DNA from: Haloprofundus salilacus
GTDB taxonomy: Archaea > Halobacteriota > Halobacteria > Halobacteriales > Haloferacaceae
Assembly (NCBI RefSeq): GCF_020150815.1
Contig: NZ_CP083723.1
Location: 1,860,001 to 1,924,000, forward strand
Direction of reading: 5' to 3'
DNA: 64,000 nucleotides
In this document: in pieces, positions 45,054 through 58,729 of the stretch
How the letters are laid out: every line of letters begins with the position of its first letter
Position numbering within the stretch: position 1 is the stretch's first letter
Translations under genes and position numbers: made by a program
Notes under the pieces: generated by a model
What the model saw: only the letters and a program-made list of their open reading frames with translations
Database searches by the model: none
What the model was told of the DNA's origin: nothing

Positions 45054-46418
45054 TCACTCCGCGTGCGGCGACGCGGGCGTCCGCTCGGCGTCGCTGCCTC
45101 CCTCGTAGAGGTGACAGGCGACCTGTTGCTCGTCGAGCGGCCGCGGGAGCGGAACCTCGCGCTCGCAGACGGTGGTGAGCGCCTCCAACTCCGCGAGCGC
45201 ACCCTCGCGATCGCCGCCGAGATACGCCCGCGTCGCTGCCCGGAGCGACGACTCCGTCTCTCGCGGGAGGTTGATCTCCGCCACGTCGACGCCGATACCG
45301 GTGGAACGCACCTCGGAGGGGTGACGGTACTCTTCGGGAACGTCGAGGGCGAGTCCCTGACTGAGCATCCGTTCGACGGCGTCGTCGTCGGCGTCGAACT
45401 CCTCGTGCTCGAAGTCGTCCCTGCGCAGGCGTATCTTGTATTGGAAGGCACGCCGGAAGGCGTCCTGACTCCCCTGCCAGTCGTCCGGCGGGATGATGTG
45501 CGCACAGCGCGGGTGGTACCGACAGCCCGACGGCGGATTGCGCGGACTCGGCACCTCACCGGTAGCGTTGGCACGGCGTCGCTCCTCGGCGATCTCCACG
45601 TCGGGAACGGCGTCGAACAGCGCCTCTGTGTATGGGTGTTTCGGGTCCTCGATGAGGTCGTCGGTCGGCCCGTGTTCGATGACGTTTCCGAGGTACATGA
45701 TGGCCGTCCGGTCGCACATGTAGCGGATGAGCGAGAGGTCGTGGCTGATGAACACGTACGTCAGGTCGTACTTGTCCTGCAGTTCCTTCATTAGGTTCAA
45801 CACGCCGGCGCGGATGGAGACGTCGAGCATCGACACCGGTTCGTCGGCGACGACGAAGTCGGGGTCGACAACGAGTGCTCGCGCGATGGCGACGCGCTGG
45901 CGCTCGCCGCCGGAGAGTTCGTCCGGGAACGCGTCGAGATACACTTCGGCTGGACCGAGACCCACGTCGTTGAGCACCGTCTTGACGCGCTCGCGTCGGT
46001 CGTCGTAGGAGTCGGCCATCCCGTTTATCTGCAACGGCTCCGCGATGGCGTCGAACACTGTCATCCGGGGGTTGAGACTCTCGAAGGGGTCCTGAAAGAT
46101 CATCTGGACGCGCTGTCGGAACTCACGCTCCTCCTCGCGCGTCATGTTCGAGATGTCGGTGCCGTCGAAATGAATCTCGCCCTCGGTCGGTTCGTAGAGC
46201 TTGACGAGCAGTTTTCCGAGCGTCGTCTTCCCGCAACCGGACTCGCCGGCGATGCCGAGGATGTCGCCCTTCTCGATGGAGAGATTCACACCCTCGACGG
46301 CGCGGACCGGTTGCGGTTCGCGGCCGAGAATCGTGTCGACGATTCCCCGGCTCATGTCGAACCACTTGTGGACGTTCTCGATTTCGACTAGCGACTCTGC
46401 GTTGCGGTCTCTTTCCAT
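45054..46418 (-). CDS. oppF: Oligopeptide ABC transporter ATPase, OppF type
   Basis: The 454-residue ATPase contains GESGCGKTT (Walker A), LSGGERQR (signature) and FVVADEPVSMLDVS (Walker B). The oligopeptide/dipeptide C-terminal motif SGCRYHPRCAHI follows, then about 120 more residues with a charged composition that are not part of standard OppF. Start ATG 46418 overlaps oppD by 31 bases. The extra C-terminus may be regulatory. It pairs with OppD as the heterodimeric motor of the importer. Confidence 0.9.
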   Translation of the reverse strand: MERDRNAESLVEIENVHKWFDMSRGIVDTILGREPQPVRAVEGVNLSIEKGDILGIAGESGCGKTTLGKLLVKLYEPTEGEIHFDGTDISNMTREEEREFRQRVQMIFQDPFESLNPRMTVFDAIAEPLQINGMADSYDDRRERVKTVLNDVGLGPAEVYLDAFPDELSGGERQRVAIARALVVDPDFVVADEPVSMLDVSIRAGVLNLMKELQDKYDLTYVFISHDLSLIRYMCDRTAIMYLGNVIEHGPTDDLIEDPKHPYTEALFDAVPDVEIAEERRRANATGEVPSPRNPPSGCRYHPRCAHIIPPDDWQGSQDAFRRAFQYKIRLRRDDFEHEEFDADDDAVERMLSQGLALDVPEEYRHPSEVRSTGIGVDVAEINLPRETESSLRAATRAYLGGDREGALAELEALTTVCEREVPLPRPLDEQQVACHLYEGGSDAERTPASPHAE

Positions 46419-47542
46419 GTTTCCTCCTTTATCGCCTTCGTTCGTATCTCGTCCAGTTCGTCGCTCCGGTAGCAGGCGGAGCCGTGGCGGCGATCGTCCA
46501 TCGCCTCCTGCAGCCGTCCGGTCTCCTCGACGGCCGCGACGTCGTACATCGGCGGGTGGCTCCGCTCGCAGTCGTCGACGGCGAACGGACATCGCTTGCG
46601 GAACCGACAGCCGGGGTCGGGGTCGCGCAGGTGCGGCGGCGATCCGGGGATGGAGACGAGCTGCTGCTGTTTCTGCGTGATGGTCGGAAAGGAGTTCTTC
46701 AGCCCGAGCGTGTAGGGGTTCGCCGTCTCTCTGAAGATGTCGTCGCGCGTGCCGCGCTCCATGATCTTCCCGCCGTACATGACGGCCATCCGGTCGCAGA
46801 TCTCGGCCATGACGCTGATGTCGTGGCTGATGACGAGGATGGAGACGCCGAACTCCTCCTGAATCATCTCCAGTTCCTCCAGGATTCGGTCCTGGATGAT
46901 GACGTCGAGCGCCGTCGTCGGCTCGTCGGCGATGAGCAGACTCGGGTTGCACGCCATCGCCATGGCGATGACCGCGCGCTGTTTCATCCCGCCGGAGAAC
47001 TCGTGGGCGTAGTCGTCGGCACGCTCGGGGTCGATGCCGACGCGTTCGAGCAGGTCGCGGGCGCGCTCGTCGGCCTCAGCTTTGGTCGTTCGCGGTTCGT
47101 GGCGAAGGATGGCCTCGACGATCTGGTCGCCCACCTTGTAGACGGGGTTGAGCGCGTTCATCGCGCTCTGGGGGATGAGCGCCACCTCGCGCCAGCGGAT
47201 GTCCCGAATCTGGGAGTCGTTCAACTGCGCGAGGTCGGTCATCCCGTCGGCGCGGACCGGGTAGCGCTCGTCGTCGATTATCTCGCGTCTCGGATTTCCG
47301 TTCCCGTCTTCCCACTGCGGGAGCGTTCCGTCGAACCACACTTCGCCGCTTTCGATGTAGCCGTTCGAGTCCAGGAGGTGGAGGAGGCTCTTCGCAAGCG
47401 TCGTCTTCCCACACCCGGACTCGCCGACGAGTCCGTACGTTTCGCCCGCGTCGACGGTGAAGCTCGCACCGTCGACGGCGTGGACGTCGGCGTCTTCGAC
47501 TGCGTATCGTATCGAGAGGTCGTTTACTTCCAGTAGCGTCAT
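46388..47542 (-). CDS. oppD: Oligopeptide ABC transporter ATPase, OppD type
   Basis: The 384-residue ATPase shows GESGCGKTT (Walker A, about residues 38-46), FSGGMKQR (signature) and [13 protein letters not shown] (Walker B). The C-terminal oligopeptide motif is [13 protein letters not shown], whose cysteines may bind a metal cluster in this family. The start is three bases after the stop of the upstream permease, and the gene overlaps oppF downstream. Confidence 0.92.
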
Positions 47543-47545
47543 TGA

Positions 47546-48499
47546 TTATCTCTGCGGGTTGGTCACGTCCTCCATCGAGAAGCCGATGAAGTAGAACGCC
47601 GTTGCGAGCAGCATGATGGCCAGTCCGGGCGGAATCAGCCACCACCACGCGGTGAAGATGTACCCCTGCGACTTGATGCTCTCAAGCATAATACCCCACG
47701 AGAGCGATGCGAAGTCCGCCAGTCCGAGATACGCCAGCGCCGCTTGCGTCAGGATGGCCGCCGCGGCGTCCTGTGCGAGGTAGACGAACGACAGCGGGAG
47801 CACGTGCGGCATGATGTGCCGGAAGACGATGCGGAGGTCGCTCGCCCCGGCGACTCTTGCCGACTCGACGTACGCCCGCGTCCGCAGCGAGAGCGTCTCG
47901 CCGCGGATGACGATGCAGTTGTTGAGCCACGAGGTGACGGCGATGCCGATGATGATGTTCGTCGTCGTCTGCCCGCGAATCGCCACGAGGACGATGAGAA
48001 GCGGCAGGAACGGCAGGCCGTACATCACGTCGACGAAACGCTGGATGGTCTCGTCTATCCACGTGTCGCCGTAGAACCCGCTGATGAGGCCGAGCGGGAC
48101 GCCGACGAGACTAGAGAGCAACCCGGCTGCGAGACCGATGTACATTGCCGTCGACGCCGAGTACACCAGCAGTGTCGCGATATCGCGGCCGTAGGAGTCG
48201 GTTCCGAGGGGTGCGAAGAACGGATCGCCGAACGCGGGGGGGTGCGGCAGCGATCGGACCTGTTCGCCGGTCAGTCGGGCGTTCTCGTAGCCGATGTATG
48301 CAACCCAGTCGGGCGTGTGCGGCGCGAACCAACTGGGAACGACGGCCCACAGCGAGAACATCGTCAGGATGACGAGTCCGATGACGCCCATCCGGTGTTC
48401 GGTGAACCGGTCCCAGCCGCGGCGGATGCGCTCGATGCGGGGCGCCCACTGCTTTCGGTACGATTCGAGTCCGGTCGTGGATTCTCCTTCGGTTGCCAT
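47546..48499 (-). CDS. oppC: Oligopeptide ABC transporter permease, OppC type
   Basis: The 317-residue protein has six hydrophobic segments with an N-terminal polar part. The EAA-like loop near the C-terminus is YVESARVAGASDLRIVFRHIMPHVLP. It also shows FAPLGTDSYGRDIATLLVYSAS, a hallmark of DppC/OppC. The start ATG abuts the stop of the oppB gene. It forms the membrane channel with OppB. Confidence 0.93.
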   Translation of the reverse strand: MATEGESTTGLESYRKQWAPRIERIRRGWDRFTEHRMGVIGLVILTMFSLWAVVPSWFAPHTPDWVAYIGYENARLTGEQVRSLPHPPAFGDPFFAPLGTDSYGRDIATLLVYSASTAMYIGLAAGLLSSLVGVPLGLISGFYGDTWIDETIQRFVDVMYGLPFLPLLIVLVAIRGQTTTNIIIGIAVTSWLNNCIVIRGETLSLRTRAYVESARVAGASDLRIVFRHIMPHVLPLSFVYLAQDAAAAILTQAALAYLGLADFASLSWGIMLESIKSQGYIFTAWWWLIPPGLAIMLLATAFYFIGFSMEDVTNPQR

Positions 48500-49489
48500 C
48501 TAGTTCTCCTCCCCGAACTTGATTCGCGGGTCGAGGTACGTGTACGCGATGTCGGTGATGAGACGCATGACGACGACGAGGACGGCGAGCATGAAGAACG
48601 CCGCCTGCGTCACCGGGTAGTCGTTGTTCAGCACCGCCTCGACGAGCACTTGTCCCATTCCCGGCCACGTGAAGACGGCTTCCGTGATGACCGCGCCGTC
48701 GATGAGGAAGGCCAGTCCGACGATTGCGCCGGTCGCGACGGGAATGAGCGCGTTCCGCGCCGCGTGTTTGATCATCACCGTTCGTTCGTCGAGTCCTTTC
48801 GCGCGGGCCAAGAAGACGTAGCCCTCGTCGACGACGTTGTTCATCGACGGGCGCATGATGAGCATCGCACCGACCCAGCCGATACACGAGAGGCTGACGA
48901 GCGGGAGCGTGATGTGGACGAGCACGTCGGCCATCACGGTGAACGCGTTCCACTCGAATTCGGGGAACTGCGTCAGCATGTAGGCGCTCGGGAGCAGTTC
49001 CATCTCGTAGTCGAAGAACCAGATAAATAGCCACGCCAGCCAGAACGCGGGCATTGAGTAGACCATCAGCGAGGTGCTGAAGATAGCCTTGTCCTTCTGG
49101 GTGCCGCGCCACCAGCCGAGATACATCCCGACGAGCGGCCCGACGAGATACGCGACGATGTAGCTCGCACCGAAGAGGATGAGCGTCCGTGGCATCCGCC
49201 GGAGGATGAGGTCCCAGACGGGCACGTTCCACGTCGGCGACCGGCCGAAGTTACCCGTCTGGTAGTTGATCATGAAGTTGAGATACTGTTTCCACAGCGG
49301 TTCGTTGAGTCCCCAGACCTCCTGGATACGCTCGACCTGCTCTCTGGTCATCTCCGGGGAGATCATGCTGTCGATGAACGTCCCGGGAGCGCTGCGGATG
49401 AGCGCGAACAGCAGGGTCATGATGAGCAGGAGGGTCAGGTAGGAGACCACGAGCCGCTTTGCGAGGTACTTTCCACTGATTCTGGTCAT
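48500..49489 (-). CDS. oppB: Oligopeptide ABC transporter permease, OppB type
   Basis: The 329-residue protein begins MTRISGKYLAKRLVVSYLTLLLIMTLLF and includes the EAA-like loop DEGYVFLARAKGLDERTVMIKHAARNALIPV and TEAVFTWPGMGQVLVEAV of the DppB/OppB family. ATG 49489 gives the canonical start; a longer in-frame extension upstream is non-coding. It is separated by 176 bases from the broken binding-protein gene upstream. Confidence 0.93.
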   Translation of the reverse strand: MTRISGKYLAKRLVVSYLTLLLIMTLLFALIRSAPGTFIDSMISPEMTREQVERIQEVWGLNEPLWKQYLNFMINYQTGNFGRSPTWNVPVWDLILRRMPRTLILFGASYIVAYLVGPLVGMYLGWWRGTQKDKAIFSTSLMVYSMPAFWLAWLFIWFFDYEMELLPSAYMLTQFPEFEWNAFTVMADVLVHITLPLVSLSCIGWVGAMLIMRPSMNNVVDEGYVFLARAKGLDERTVMIKHAARNALIPVATGAIVGLAFLIDGAVITEAVFTWPGMGQVLVEAVLNNDYPVTQAAFFMLAVLVVVMRLITDIAYTYLDPRIKFGEEN

Positions 49490-49665: not shown

Positions 49666-51724
49666 TTAGTTGTCCGTCTGGTGGATCTGCATGATGTTCG
49701 TCCCGAGGTAGCCGTCGCCGGGGCCCGGGATGTTGCCGACGAAGCCGGTCCAGTCGGCGGAGTTGACGGGCCACTGCACCTTCGCGTAGGAGAGGACCAT
49801 TGTCGGGAAGTCGAGGTAGATCTGCTCGACCGCCTGCTTGGCGAGGTCGTTTCGGGTCTCGGTGTCCATCTCGGTGCGGCACTGCGTGATGAGGTCGTTG
49901 GCTGTCGCGTCGTCGAAGAGGCCGTAGCCCATCGGGTTGTTGAGCAGCGTGTCCGTGTTCTCGTCGCTGTGGTCGTCGGCGTTGGCGCCGTGGAAAAGGC
50001 TGTAGAGCGAACTCGCGCCGAACGGCGAGAGGCTGCTCCACGACATCGGGAAGATGTCGAAGTCCTCGTCGGCGTAGACGCTGTTGAGCATCGTGTTGAA
50101 CGTCATCACCTTCCGCTCGATGGGGATGCCGATCGAGCGGAGGTTGCCGACGTAGCGCTCGACCATCTGGGCCGTCTTCGGCGAGTCCTTCGCCGGGTAG
50201 ACGAGCATCTGGAGCGGTCCGTCGTTGATGTCGGTGATGGTCTCGCCGTTGACGCGAATCTCCTGGTCGACGTCGGCGTCCTGCAGCACGCTCGACTGAA
50301 CGTCGCCGAAGCTGTAGTCGTGTTTCGCCTCGCTCTGCCCCGCGCTCACGTCGGTGAGGCTGCCGGGGTAGTCGATGCCGATGAACGTACCACTCTCGCC
50401 GGTGATGACCTGGCCGTCGGTGAGGAACTGACGGATGCCCTCGACGTCGACTTCGGAACTGGTCGCGTCGACGCCGCGGAAGGTGAACGCCTGCGTCGCC
50501 GGGCCGGTGAGGAGTTCGCCGTCGCCACCAGCGTCAGGGCGTACCGCCGAGTAACCGGGCGGCATCACGAAGTCGCCCTCCTGTTCGTAGCCGCGGTTGA
50601 GCTCCTGCGTCCAGTAGATGTCGTCGTACGCGAAGCCGAGCACCTGCCGGAACGCGAGGTCGTCGAGCGGCGTCCGACGGAGGTTGAACGAGTAGTGACC
50701 GTAGCCGGTGTCGTAGCCGGTGACGATGGATTTCCCGTCGGCGTCCTCAACCTGCTGGACCTTCGCGGTGTCAATCTGCTCGTACACCGTGTCGACGTCG
50801 CCGTTGAAGAACGCCTGCGTGAGCGCCGACTGGCTGCCGTAGATTTTGAACCGGACGGAGTCGATGAACGGGCCGCCGGCCAGCAGATTCTCGTGGTCCT
50901 TTTTCCACTGGAGGTTCTCCAGCGGTGCCTCGTCGCGGAACGTCACCTCGATCGCGGTGTCCGGGCTGTACGTCGTGACTTCGCCCGGCCCCGCGCCGAT
51001 GGGACCGCCGTTCTCTTCGGGCTGGTAGGCCTGGTAGTCGTCGACCTCCTCCCAGATGTGCTTCGGCAGCAGCGGAACCTGCAACTGCGTGGAGTCGTAG
51101 GTGCCGATGGCCTGCGTGAGCTTCATGTGGACGTCCCAGTCGTTGTCGGCCTCCTCGACCGACTCGATGGGGTCGACCGTCGAGACGTAGCGCCCCGGCT
51201 TCTTCTCCATCAGGTAGTTGTAGGTGAAGATGACGTCCTCGACGGTCAGCTCCTCGCCGTCGCTGAAGGTGAGCCCCTCGCGGACGTTGAAGTAGACGTC
51301 GGGTTTCGGCTCCTCACCACCGGTGTTCTCGACGGTCCACTCAGTGTAGGCGCTCGGCTGAACCTCGAAGTTGACGGGGTCGATCGTCGTACCCCAGCAG
51401 TAGACGAAGTCGAGGGTCGATCGTCGTACCCCAGCAGTAGACGAAGTCGAGGATACTCCACGAGTACGCGGAAGAGGTCGAAAGCGGGTTGATCCCTTTC
51501 GGCTGCTGGTCCATCCCGACGGTGAACGTCCCGCCGCGGGTGATCTCGTTCGGATCTGTCGTATTCTGCTGGGGCGTATCCTCGGTATCCTCGGTCCCGT
51601 TTCCGTCCCCGTCGTTCCCGGCGTTTCCGCCGTCGCTGCACCCGGCGAGTGTGAGGGCAACGGCGCCTGCACCGGAGGCTTTCAGGAACCGCCGGCGGCT
51701 ATCGTTCATCGAATCGTCAGACAT
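49666..51724 (-). pseudogene. oppA: Oligopeptide-binding lipoprotein gene, frameshifted by 37-bp duplication
   Basis: The intact protein would be a Tat lipoprotein of about 673 residues: N-terminus MSDDSMNDSRRRFLKASGAG with lipobox LAGC, then GGTFTVGMDQQPKGINPLST, a typical family 5 solute-binding start. A perfect tandem duplication of 37 bases (51379-51415 and 51416-51452) shifts the frame. Reading from ATG 51724 gives ILDFVYCWGTTIDP and then a wrong frame ending after 127 residues. The correct continuation (VNFEVQPSAYTEW...) stands in another frame down to 49666. Removing one copy restores a single frame (2022 bases). It is upstream of oppB-C-D-F, so the importer may lack its receptor. A sequencing or assembly error is the main alternative. 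Confidence 0.88.
51379..51452. repeat. Perfect 37-bp tandem duplication inside oppA
   Basis: Two identical 37-base units, 51379-51415 and 51416-51452, stand head to tail with no spacer. The unit length is not a multiple of three, so it breaks the reading frame. Loss of one unit by slippage would repair the gene. Confidence 0.95.
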
Positions 51725-51833: not shown

Positions 51834-52106
51834 TCAACGGCCCCGAAGCATGGAGTTGCCTTCGAGGAAGAAGTACATGCTCATCACGACGGCCGACCCG
51901 GACATCGCGAGGTAGATGTCACCGGGAACCTGCGTCGGTTCCGTTCGCGACAGCGCCATGCCCAACAGGCCCCAGAACGCCGACAGCGCGAACCCGCCGC
52001 CGAGCAGAAAGAACGACTCCACCTCCCGCCCGCGGCGATAGTAAATCATGCCTGCGAGGAGGGTGAGACCAGCGAGAATCGCCAAGACACTTCGAGTATC
52101 GAGCAT
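51834..52106 (-). CDS. Small three-helix membrane protein, unknown
   Basis: The 90-residue protein has hydrophobic segments at about 5-21, 32-50 and 64-82, with YYRRGREVE as a basic/acidic loop after the first. A strong TATA-like ttatata on the minus strand (about 52127-52136), 26 bases upstream, selects ATG 52106 and implies a leaderless transcript. No family recognised. Confidence 0.7.
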   Translation of the reverse strand: MLDTRSVLAILAGLTLLAGMIYYRRGREVESFFLLGGGFALSAFWGLLGMALSRTEPTQVPGDIYLAMSGSAVVMSMYFFLEGNSMLRGR

Positions 52107-52319: not shown

Positions 52320-53015
52320 ATGGTATCCGCACTGTTCATCGTCAGCGAGGAGGGGTACTGGGCCGAGGAGTGTACCGAACCGCTCACCACGCTCTCGGAC
52401 GCGGGCGTCGACGTCACCGTCGCCACGCCGAGCGGGTCGCCGCCGGTGGTCGACGAGCGCTCCGTCGACCCGGAGACGGTCGGCGAGGAGACGGCCGAAC
52501 GCGCCCGAGAGATTCACGAGAACGACGAGCGACTCAACGACCCCGAACCCATCGCGGCCGTGTCGGCGTCGGAGTACGACGTCGTCGTCTTCCCCGGCGG
52601 TCACGGCACCGAGTGGGACATCAACCAGGACCGTCACGCGCGACGGCTCCTGCGCGACGCCGTCGCGGGCGACGACGGAAAGGCGCTCGTCGTCTGTCAC
52701 GCCGTCGGTATCCTCGGCTTCACGCACACCGAGGAGGGGAAGTACGTCGTCAACGAGCGCGACGTGACCGGCTTCCCCAACGAGTGGGAAGAGGAGATCG
52801 TCGACGAGCACGACCGGATGCCCGACGGTCGGAAGCTTCCCTACTGGGTCGAAGACGAGGTGAAGGCGGCAGGCGCGAACTGGGACGCCGAACTCGACGC
52901 CGACACGAGTGTCACCGTCGACGGCGACCTCATCACCGCCCGCGGTCCTGAGTCCTCGCACACGGCGGCGACGACGCTGCTCGACGAGTTGGGTGTCGAA
53001 GCGAAGAGCGCCTAA
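52320..53015 (+). CDS. DJ-1/PfpI-family protein (Hsp31-like)
   Basis: The 231-residue protein has the DJ-1/PfpI fold: an N-terminal strand MVSALFIVSEEGYWAEE, then VVFPGGHGTEWDIN with the nucleophile-elbow acid loop, and the catalytic cysteine in LVVCHAVGILGF. The larger insert and GHGTEWD motif resemble Hsp31/YhbO-like glyoxalase III or chaperone members. Its role may be protection from reactive carbonyls. It is a single gene; no partner is evident. Confidence 0.88.
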   Translation: MVSALFIVSEEGYWAEECTEPLTTLSDAGVDVTVATPSGSPPVVDERSVDPETVGEETAERAREIHENDERLNDPEPIAAVSASEYDVVVFPGGHGTEWDINQDRHARRLLRDAVAGDDGKALVVCHAVGILGFTHTEEGKYVVNERDVTGFPNEWEEEIVDEHDRMPDGRKLPYWVEDEVKAAGANWDAELDADTSVTVDGDLITARGPESSHTAATTLLDELGVEAKSA

Positions 53016-56453: not shown

Positions 56454-57407
56454 TCACATGTACCCCAAATCACGCAGGCGACCCATGATGTTCTCTTTGT
56501 CCTGCGCGCGGCCCTCTCGCTCGGTCGTCGCGTCTAGATCCTGCATCCACGCCGGGCGCTCGTCGGACTTCGCCGACCCCGACTCGGTGCCGAGCGAGCG
56601 GAACCCCTCGAAGTACTTCGGCGAGACGGGGAGATCCTCGGCGATCAAATCGCCGGGGAGGTCGTCGCGCGACTCGGGGACGTGTCCGGCCGGGTAGCCC
56701 TCGACGGTGTCGGGGACGACGAACTGCCAGAACGCCTCCCAGACGTCGGCCTCGTCGAACTGGAGGATGGTGTGGATGCGGTCGTGCGGCGGGTACTTCT
56801 CGGAGTCGTGACGCGGACTGAAGAACGTCTCGTCGGCGCGCGACTCCTGTTCGTCCCAGCGGACGCCCGAGAAGATGCCGTCGTACCCCCGCTGGGTGAG
56901 CGTCTCGTTCAGCGCGATGGTTTTCAGAAGGTGGTTGCCGACGAACGTGTCGGCGTCGAGGACGAGCGTCTCCTCGTCGTACTCCAGTCGAGCGAGTTCC
57001 CGCCGCGTCGCCTCGCCGAGTTCGCTCACGGCGAACTCGTCGCCGGGTTCGGCGCCGAGGCGGGCGAACGCCTCGTTTCGCGCGACGACGAGTTCGAGGC
57101 CCCACTCGTCGGCCCACTTCTCGACGAACGCGGTCACCTCGGGGAAGTGCTCGAAGTGGTCGATGAAGACGACCGGCGGTACGTCGTGGCCGTGCTCGCG
57201 GGCGACCTCCATCACGACGTAGAGGACGAGCGTCGAGTCCTTTCCGCCGGTCCACATCACCGCCGGGTTTCGGTACTGGTCAAGCGCCCGCGCGGTGAGT
57301 TCGGCGGCCTTCTCGACTTTCTCGCCGAGGGAGGGGTAGTCGGCGGCGGTCTGGGCGGTTCCGGCTTCGTAGTCCACGTCGAGGTAGTCGGGAAACTGCT
57401 CGGTCAT
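56454..57407 (-). CDS. CysD-like PP-loop protein (PAPS-reductase/sulfurylase fold), copy 1
   Basis: The 317-residue protein has a PP-loop WTGGKDSTLVLY (about 49-60). Then come VFIDHFEHFPEVTAFVEKWADEW and IFSGVRWDEQESRADETFFSPRH, and a tail FRSLGTESGSAKS...TTEREGRAQDKENIMGRLRDLGYM. The tail resembles the C-terminus of CysD, subunit 2 of sulfate adenylyltransferase (compare LGCxPxTG, SERxGRxxD and a final KKxGYF). The family is often named PAPS reductase in haloarchaea. CysN is not in the window. The substrate may be sulfate or something else. ATG 57407 is chosen because the upstream part is non-coding. Its paralogue lies 188 bases upstream. Confidence 0.82.
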   Translation of the reverse strand: MTEQFPDYLDVDYEAGTAQTAADYPSLGEKVEKAAELTARALDQYRNPAVMWTGGKDSTLVLYVVMEVAREHGHDVPPVVFIDHFEHFPEVTAFVEKWADEWGLELVVARNEAFARLGAEPGDEFAVSELGEATRRELARLEYDEETLVLDADTFVGNHLLKTIALNETLTQRGYDGIFSGVRWDEQESRADETFFSPRHDSEKYPPHDRIHTILQFDEADVWEAFWQFVVPDTVEGYPAGHVPESRDDLPGDLIAEDLPVSPKYFEGFRSLGTESGSAKSDERPAWMQDLDATTEREGRAQDKENIMGRLRDLGYM

Positions 57408-57595
57408 CGACGATACACTCCACCGCTGAGGATATTTACGTTTCCGCGGCGAGTGGTTGACACGGAACACGGTCGCTGTGACGTTTCCGCGGATATTCGC
57501 CGTCGCTCGGCCACGAGTCGCAAATAACGGAAAATCGACGCGTCCGCCGGGAGGTGGCAGCCCCGAGAGAGGGTGTGGCAGTTACCTGCGGAACT

Positions 57596-58567
57596 TTACA
57601 TGTAGCCGAGGTCGCGCAGGCGCTCCATCAGGTCCTCTTTGTCCTGGGCGCGGCCCGCGCGTTCGGTCGTGTTGTCGAGGTCCTGCAGCCATGCGGGCTC
57701 CTCGTCGGCTTTCGTCGTGCTCACTTCGCTGCCGAGCGAGCGGAACCCCTCGAAGTACTTCGGCGAGACGGGGATGTCCTCGTGGGTGAGTCCGTTCGGC
57801 AGGTCGTCGTAGTCCTGCGGGACGTAGCCTTCGTCGGGGTACTCCTCGACGGTCTCCGGCACGACGAAGTGCCAGAACGCCTCCCAGACGTCGGCCTCGT
57901 CGAACTGGAGAATCGGCTGAATGCGGTCGTGCGGCGGGTAGATCTCGGGGTCGTGACGGGGACTGAAGAACGTCTCGTCGGCGCGCGCCTCCTGCTCGTC
58001 CCAGCGGATGCCGGAGATGACGCCGTCGATGTCGTACTCCTCGAGCGCGTTGTTGAGCGCGACGGTCTTCAGCAGGTGGTTGCCGACGTACGTGTCGAGC
58101 AGGAACGGGAAGTCGTCCTCCTCGTACTCCAAGATGTCGCGGATGTGGTGCTGGTTCTGCTCGTTGAGTCCGTCGACTGGGATGTCATCGCCCGGTTCGA
58201 GACCGTTCTCGTCGACGTACTCGCCGACGTTATCGTTACGCGCGTAGATGACCTCGAGGTCCCACTCGTCGGCCCAGCGCTCGACGAACTCCATCAATTC
58301 GTCGAAGTGCTGGTAGTGGTCGATGAACACCGCGGGCGGCTTTTCGAGGTCGAACCGCTCCGCAACCTCGTTGACGAAGTACAGCGTCAGCGTCGAGTCC
58401 TTCCCGCCGGTCCACATCACCGCGGGGTTCTCGTACTGTTCGAGGCCGGTCTTCGTCACCTCGATAGCTTTCTCTAGCTTGTGCTGGATGCTCGGATAGT
58501 CGGCCGCGGATTCACCTTCGCCGTCGGAGTAGTCTACGTCGAGGTACTCTGGGAAGCCTTCGGGCAT
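57596..58567 (-). CDS. CysD-like PP-loop protein (PAPS-reductase/sulfurylase fold), copy 2
   Basis: The 323-residue protein is a close tandem paralogue of copy 1. It shows the same PP-loop WTGGKDSTLTLY, VFIDHYQHFDELMEFVERWADEW, VISGIRWDEQEARADETFFSPRH and tail TTERAGRAQDKEDLMERLRDLGYM. The two differ most between residues 100 and 160. It has FRSLGSEVSTTKADEEP in place of the CysD LGCxPxTG loop, so the CysD-type cysteine is gone in both copies. ATG 58567 fits the shared N-terminus (PEGFPEYLDVDY). The gene is upstream of copy 1 and in the same direction. Confidence 0.83.
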   Translation of the reverse strand: MPEGFPEYLDVDYSDGEGESAADYPSIQHKLEKAIEVTKTGLEQYENPAVMWTGGKDSTLTLYFVNEVAERFDLEKPPAVFIDHYQHFDELMEFVERWADEWDLEVIYARNDNVGEYVDENGLEPGDDIPVDGLNEQNQHHIRDILEYEEDDFPFLLDTYVGNHLLKTVALNNALEEYDIDGVISGIRWDEQEARADETFFSPRHDPEIYPPHDRIQPILQFDEADVWEAFWHFVVPETVEEYPDEGYVPQDYDDLPNGLTHEDIPVSPKYFEGFRSLGSEVSTTKADEEPAWLQDLDNTTERAGRAQDKEDLMERLRDLGYM

Positions 58568-58729
58568 CTCGTAATGAGATATAATTAGCGGAGTAAAGTG
58601 TCTTATGGCTCGTCGCAACGCGTGAGTGACGCTGTGTGTTATTCACACGCTCGGCCCATCGAACGCGCCGAAAGGCCGCGTATCCGCTCGGGTCGTCGTG
58701 TCGTCGGAGAAACTGCCGCGCGCCGCCGC

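Follow-up and report, generated by a model that had tools for sequence, protein, structure and literature searches.

A 37-bp tandem duplication shifts the reading frame of a predicted solute-binding lipoprotein gene in the genome sequence of Haloprofundus salilacus

Introduction

In Escherichia coli, RecA-independent rearrangements between nearby repeats are explained by slipped misalignment as the standard model (as discussed in PMC4627823). Among haloarchaea, virus-escape mutants of Haloferax gibbonsii LR2-5 have been found to carry spontaneous in-frame tandem duplications of 15 bp and 48 bp in an S-layer gene (PMC9973310). In fission yeast, a review describes microhomology-mediated tandem duplications in the ssp1 gene that are reversible (PMC13207564). 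Haloarchaea examined to date have proved to be polyploid, and in Haloferax volcanii gene conversion equalises the chromosome copies even without selection (PMC4056108); a single allele would therefore be the normal outcome of an assembly. In this study we describe an exact 37-bp tandem duplication within a predicted binding-protein gene of H. salilacus, which lies in a stretch of 64,000 nucleotides, here called the window, and we compare this locus with its relatives and with the systems above.

Results

Structure and rarity of the repeat

Tandem Repeats Finder reports an array at 51377-51452 with a period of 37, 2.1 copies, 100% matches and no indels. An exact scan agrees, showing that this 76-bp array consists of two identical 37-bp units and matches itself over 39 bp at offset 37. 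In the register of Tandem Repeats Finder, its parts are as follows.

51377..51413, minus strand: 37-bp unit, the second of the two when the coding strand is read
51414..51450, minus strand: 37-bp unit, the first of the two when the coding strand is read, with the same sequence as the second
51451..51452, minus strand: 2 bp common to the junction (GG on the plus strand, CC on the coding strand)

The 2-bp overlap at the junction allows three equivalent registers of the unit, one of which gives the coordinates 51379-51452 under which the first-pass annotation had correctly described a perfect 37-bp tandem duplication. The 35-mer core of the array has two copies in the window, whereas 100 shuffles of the window that preserve dinucleotides contain none at up to 3 mismatches, and a chance origin of the 37-bp repeat is excluded. 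In 464 kb sampled from this genome, comprising the window and twenty 20-kb stretches, no other exact tandem repeat has a unit of 20 bp or longer, the remaining ones having units of 12-16 bp. Small exact tandem repeats were also observed nearby in other genomes of the genus, such as a 20-bp unit present twice in G001 (L026, 9818-9857) and 18/36-bp units in G002 (L023, 13480-13597).

The interrupted binding-protein gene

The array divides the gene into two frames that are out of phase with each other.

51341..51724, minus strand: solute-binding lipoprotein gene, truncated product of 127 aa, with Tat motif RRRFL, lipobox LAGC and the first copy of the unit
49666..51375, minus strand: solute-binding protein body (PF00496), open over 569 codons in a phase other than that of the gene start

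The gene starts at 51724 on the minus strand with MSDDSMNDSRRRFLKASGAGAVALTLAGC, in which a Tat motif is followed by a lipobox, the form reported for haloarchaeal lipoproteins (PMC2945643). Because 37 cannot be divided by three, the native frame is lost beyond residue 104, so that the 127-aa frame contains 104 native residues (90 before the duplicated segment and 14 in the first copy) and 23 residues out of frame, and the frame opened at the natural start ends with a stop at codon 128. Without the extra unit, the frame would be 270 + 42 + 1710 = 2022 bases long and encode 673 residues (90 + 14 + 570 codons including the stop). Both earlier statements, that a 673-residue lipoprotein is cut to 127 residues and that removal of one unit gives a single 2022-base frame, are thus borne out by the frame from the natural start and by codon arithmetic. 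The SBP_bac_5 model (PF00496) scores 125.7 bits on the frame-shifted body against a curated cut-off of 32.4, while the 127-aa frame contains the Tat motif and the lipobox; signal and body do not form one open frame here. At the family level, the product is predicted to be a Tat-exported, lipobox-bearing family-5 solute-binding protein, and the duplication very probably knocks the gene out, with apparent loss of the exported lipoprotein. An internal translation start would yield a protein without a signal peptide. Such a start, or a ribosomal +1 shift, is a formal possibility that counts against this reading. Elsewhere in the genome, we found only distant homologues with 31% and 24% identity, which may or may not share the substrates of the importer.

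The importer operon

An Opp/Dpp-type ABC importer is encoded here by five genes, of which the binding-protein gene comes first, followed downstream by two permease and two ATPase genes.

48500..49489, minus strand: importer permease 1 (OppB/DppB/NikB type), intact
47546..48499, minus strand: importer permease 2 (OppC/DppC type), intact
46388..47542, minus strand: importer ATPase 1 (OppD/DppD type), intact
45054..46412, minus strand: importer ATPase 2 (OppF/DppF type), 452 aa, the length seen in relatives, intact

All four of these genes are open and of full length by comparison with relatives, in agreement with the earlier description of them as intact. As for the label of an oligopeptide-binding protein, it fits at the family level, but the peptide specificity it implies finds no equivalog support, as no NCBIfam equivalog reaches its cut-off. 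The solved relatives include peptide-, chitin-oligosaccharide- and mannoside-binding proteins. The importer is accordingly called peptide-type here at the family level only. A small hydrophobic protein of 90 aa (51834-52106) is encoded in the interval that separates the importer from a DJ-1/PfpI-type gene (52320-53015); it has neither a Pfam match (searched as a long frame of 121 aa) nor an NCBIfam match.

Copy number and reading frame in relatives

The four remaining genomes of the genus (G001-G004) all have the operon, with an intact binding-protein gene of 678-682 residues and a single copy of the segment that is duplicated here. Among 170 genomes of the family, 22 carry a close homologue, giving 24 frames in total, and in the 23 frames from other genomes, the four congeners included, the lipobox is in frame with the body. 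Only the genome studied here has a long frame without a lipobox. The single copy in the congeners and the in-frame lipobox in the 23 other frames therefore indicate that the duplication is a derived state, confined to this genome within the sample. Neither a duplication common to the genus nor a recurrent frame break in the family was seen in these four congeners and 23 family frames.

The same comparison bears on the suggestion of a reversible on/off switch, by which gain and loss of the 37-bp unit in an evolved phase-variable (contingency) locus would turn the binding protein off and on. As a rule, contingency loci are built of numerous short units and are found again in related strains, which counts against such a locus here. 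It is true that a two-copy repeat that is out of frame can collapse by slippage and so restore the frame, and the ssp1 duplications, as reviewed in PMC13207564, offer a precedent for reversibility. However, the four congeners show neither a repeat tract nor a second copy, body and lipobox share one frame in all 23 other family frames, and polyploidy with gene conversion, as inferred from PMC4056108, would slow switching. An evolved switch is unsupported because no relative has the second copy and the ancestral sequence has nothing that would favour repeated switching; without copy-number variation in the four congeners and 23 family frames, we reject a phase-variable repeat tract as a demonstrated system and consider an evolved switch highly improbable. 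We give equally little credence to the idea of a heterogeneous population in which polyploid cells or clones carry both one-copy and two-copy alleles, and in which collapse and re-formation of the repeat would act as a crude on/off switch of a surface binding protein. What stands of the suggestion is chance collapse, which can befall any tandem repeat: occasional reversal is possible in principle, as a by-product rather than an evolved switch.

Age of the duplication

The two 37-bp copies are identical, and the same segment differs at several positions between congeners. Downstream, the 569 codons of the body contain no stop and no indel that changes the frame. Pairwise dN/dS of the body is 0.22-0.27 against the congeners and 0.14-0.22 among the congeners themselves, and changes found in one lineage only amount to 22 nonsynonymous and 18 synonymous here, similar to the 20 and 17 in G001. 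The pairwise dN/dS is slightly high in this lineage, and some relaxation of constraint before the duplication would also fit. With zero differences at 37 aligned sites, we took 74 t < 3 as a bound on age, under the assumption that change is neutral and that the copies do not convert each other. By this estimate the duplication is roughly 0.04 substitutions per site old or less, which is at most about a quarter of the lineage branch (pairwise dS of 0.31-0.38, halved), and it may be far younger.

The identical copies, the undecayed body, the intact genes of relatives and the lack of any other clearly broken gene in the window therefore indicate that the duplication is young, and an old pseudogene is rejected on the first two of these. 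The reading of a very recent mutation, one of those put forward before, is the one favoured by the single-copy intact orthologues, the undiverged copies and the undecayed body.

Could the duplication be an artefact?

A living strain with one copy and an intact gene, to whose sequence a second copy was added by read correction, overlap or gap joining, would also be expected to show an undecayed downstream frame, one copy in every relative and a lone event in the 464 kb sampled. Against this, the 464 kb contain no second duplication of this kind, and comparison with two congeners revealed no other clearly broken gene in the whole window, so that nothing points to a systematic error. An insertion of 37 bp that is not a homopolymer is also atypical of base-calling errors. 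The other hits in the window that span several frames or contain stops look, from their coordinates, like upstream extensions, antisense frames or the paralogues at 56454-58618. We thus reject a systematic assembly fault, while a single error is still possible; on balance an assembly or consensus artefact is unlikely, and less likely than a recent, ordinary mutation.

The paralogues just mentioned are neighbouring genes on the minus strand (56454-57470 and 57596-58618), which share a WTGGKDSTL motif and, by eye, have the look of PAPS-reductase-type enzymes. Two congeners have retained the pair, and there each of the homologues matches both genes.

Discussion

Our results make it probable that a recent and spontaneous 37-bp tandem duplication has inactivated the binding protein of this importer. 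We propose that, in the course of replication or repair, the nascent strand would have moved back by 37 bp through slippage or a template switch, a step that homology of at most 2 bp could have aided, and that gene conversion would then have made all chromosome copies of the presumably polyploid cell alike. Ribosomes would leave the native frame and stop early as described above, so that no lipoprotein would be made, and the permeases and ATPases would remain without a binding protein of their own, with a probable loss of transport. Slippage or template switching within one replication fork would be the simplest path to the duplication. The ancestral segment has no repeat beyond a 2-bp match, and since the array repeats over 39 bp at offset 37, the ancestral breakpoints had only 2 bp in common. 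Such a match of at least 2 bp is reached by 17% of random 37-bp junctions and is not beyond chance; because of this, junction homology does not identify the mechanism. A 16-nt inverted repeat with 14 of 16 positions paired was also observed, which connects the unit (51429-51444, also 51392-51407) with the upstream variable linker (51559-51574) 114 nt apart. An inverted repeat as good occurs in about 1% of random segments, with the 14/16 case chosen after the fact, and it might be relevant to fork stalling as a weak lead.

Why such an allele would become established can be considered within this explanation. The loss of the binding protein may have been beneficial, for example in a rich laboratory medium, in the presence of a toxic peptide-like compound or under attack by a virus that uses the lipoprotein. 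In favour of this, the affected protein would be exposed at the surface, its gene is intact in all relatives, and small tandem duplications have been recorded among virus-escape mutations of a haloarchaeal surface gene (PMC9973310). However, the same picture would result from a loss that was neutral or due to hitch-hiking, and selection adds only a cause to the explanation above; we regard a selected loss as rather doubtful.

If the duplication is real in living cells, as we infer, it provides a further clean case of a haloarchaeal gene broken by a short tandem duplication, and the genome of this strain may overstate or understate its ability for transport. It would have little bearing on open questions unless the rate of reversion is high. 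We regard the duplication as an ordinary mutation of a type already known, rather than as a demonstrated genetic switch.

The locus can be compared with known systems. In bacterial phase-variable repeat tracts, a change in repeat copy number would alter the reading frame as it does here, but this locus differs in that it has no multi-unit tract, no variation in copy number among relatives and no support for switching. In the fission yeast ssp1 gene, as described in the review cited above, one segment in a coding region likewise becomes two tandem copies in a manner that is reversible in principle, whereas those duplications rest on short flanking homologies and the homology here is 2 bp, within chance expectation. 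With other Opp/Dpp/Nik-type importers the locus shares the common gene order of a binding protein, two permeases and two ATPases, as well as a family-5 (PF00496) binding protein, and differs from them in that the gene for this protein is broken here alone. The duplications in Haloferax gibbonsii LR2-5 are in frame, lie in an S-layer gene and were selected by a virus, in contrast to the out-of-frame duplication in a solute-binding lipoprotein gene described here, for which no selection is known; like them, however, it is short and exact, appears to have arisen spontaneously and lies inside a gene for a predicted haloarchaeal cell-surface protein.
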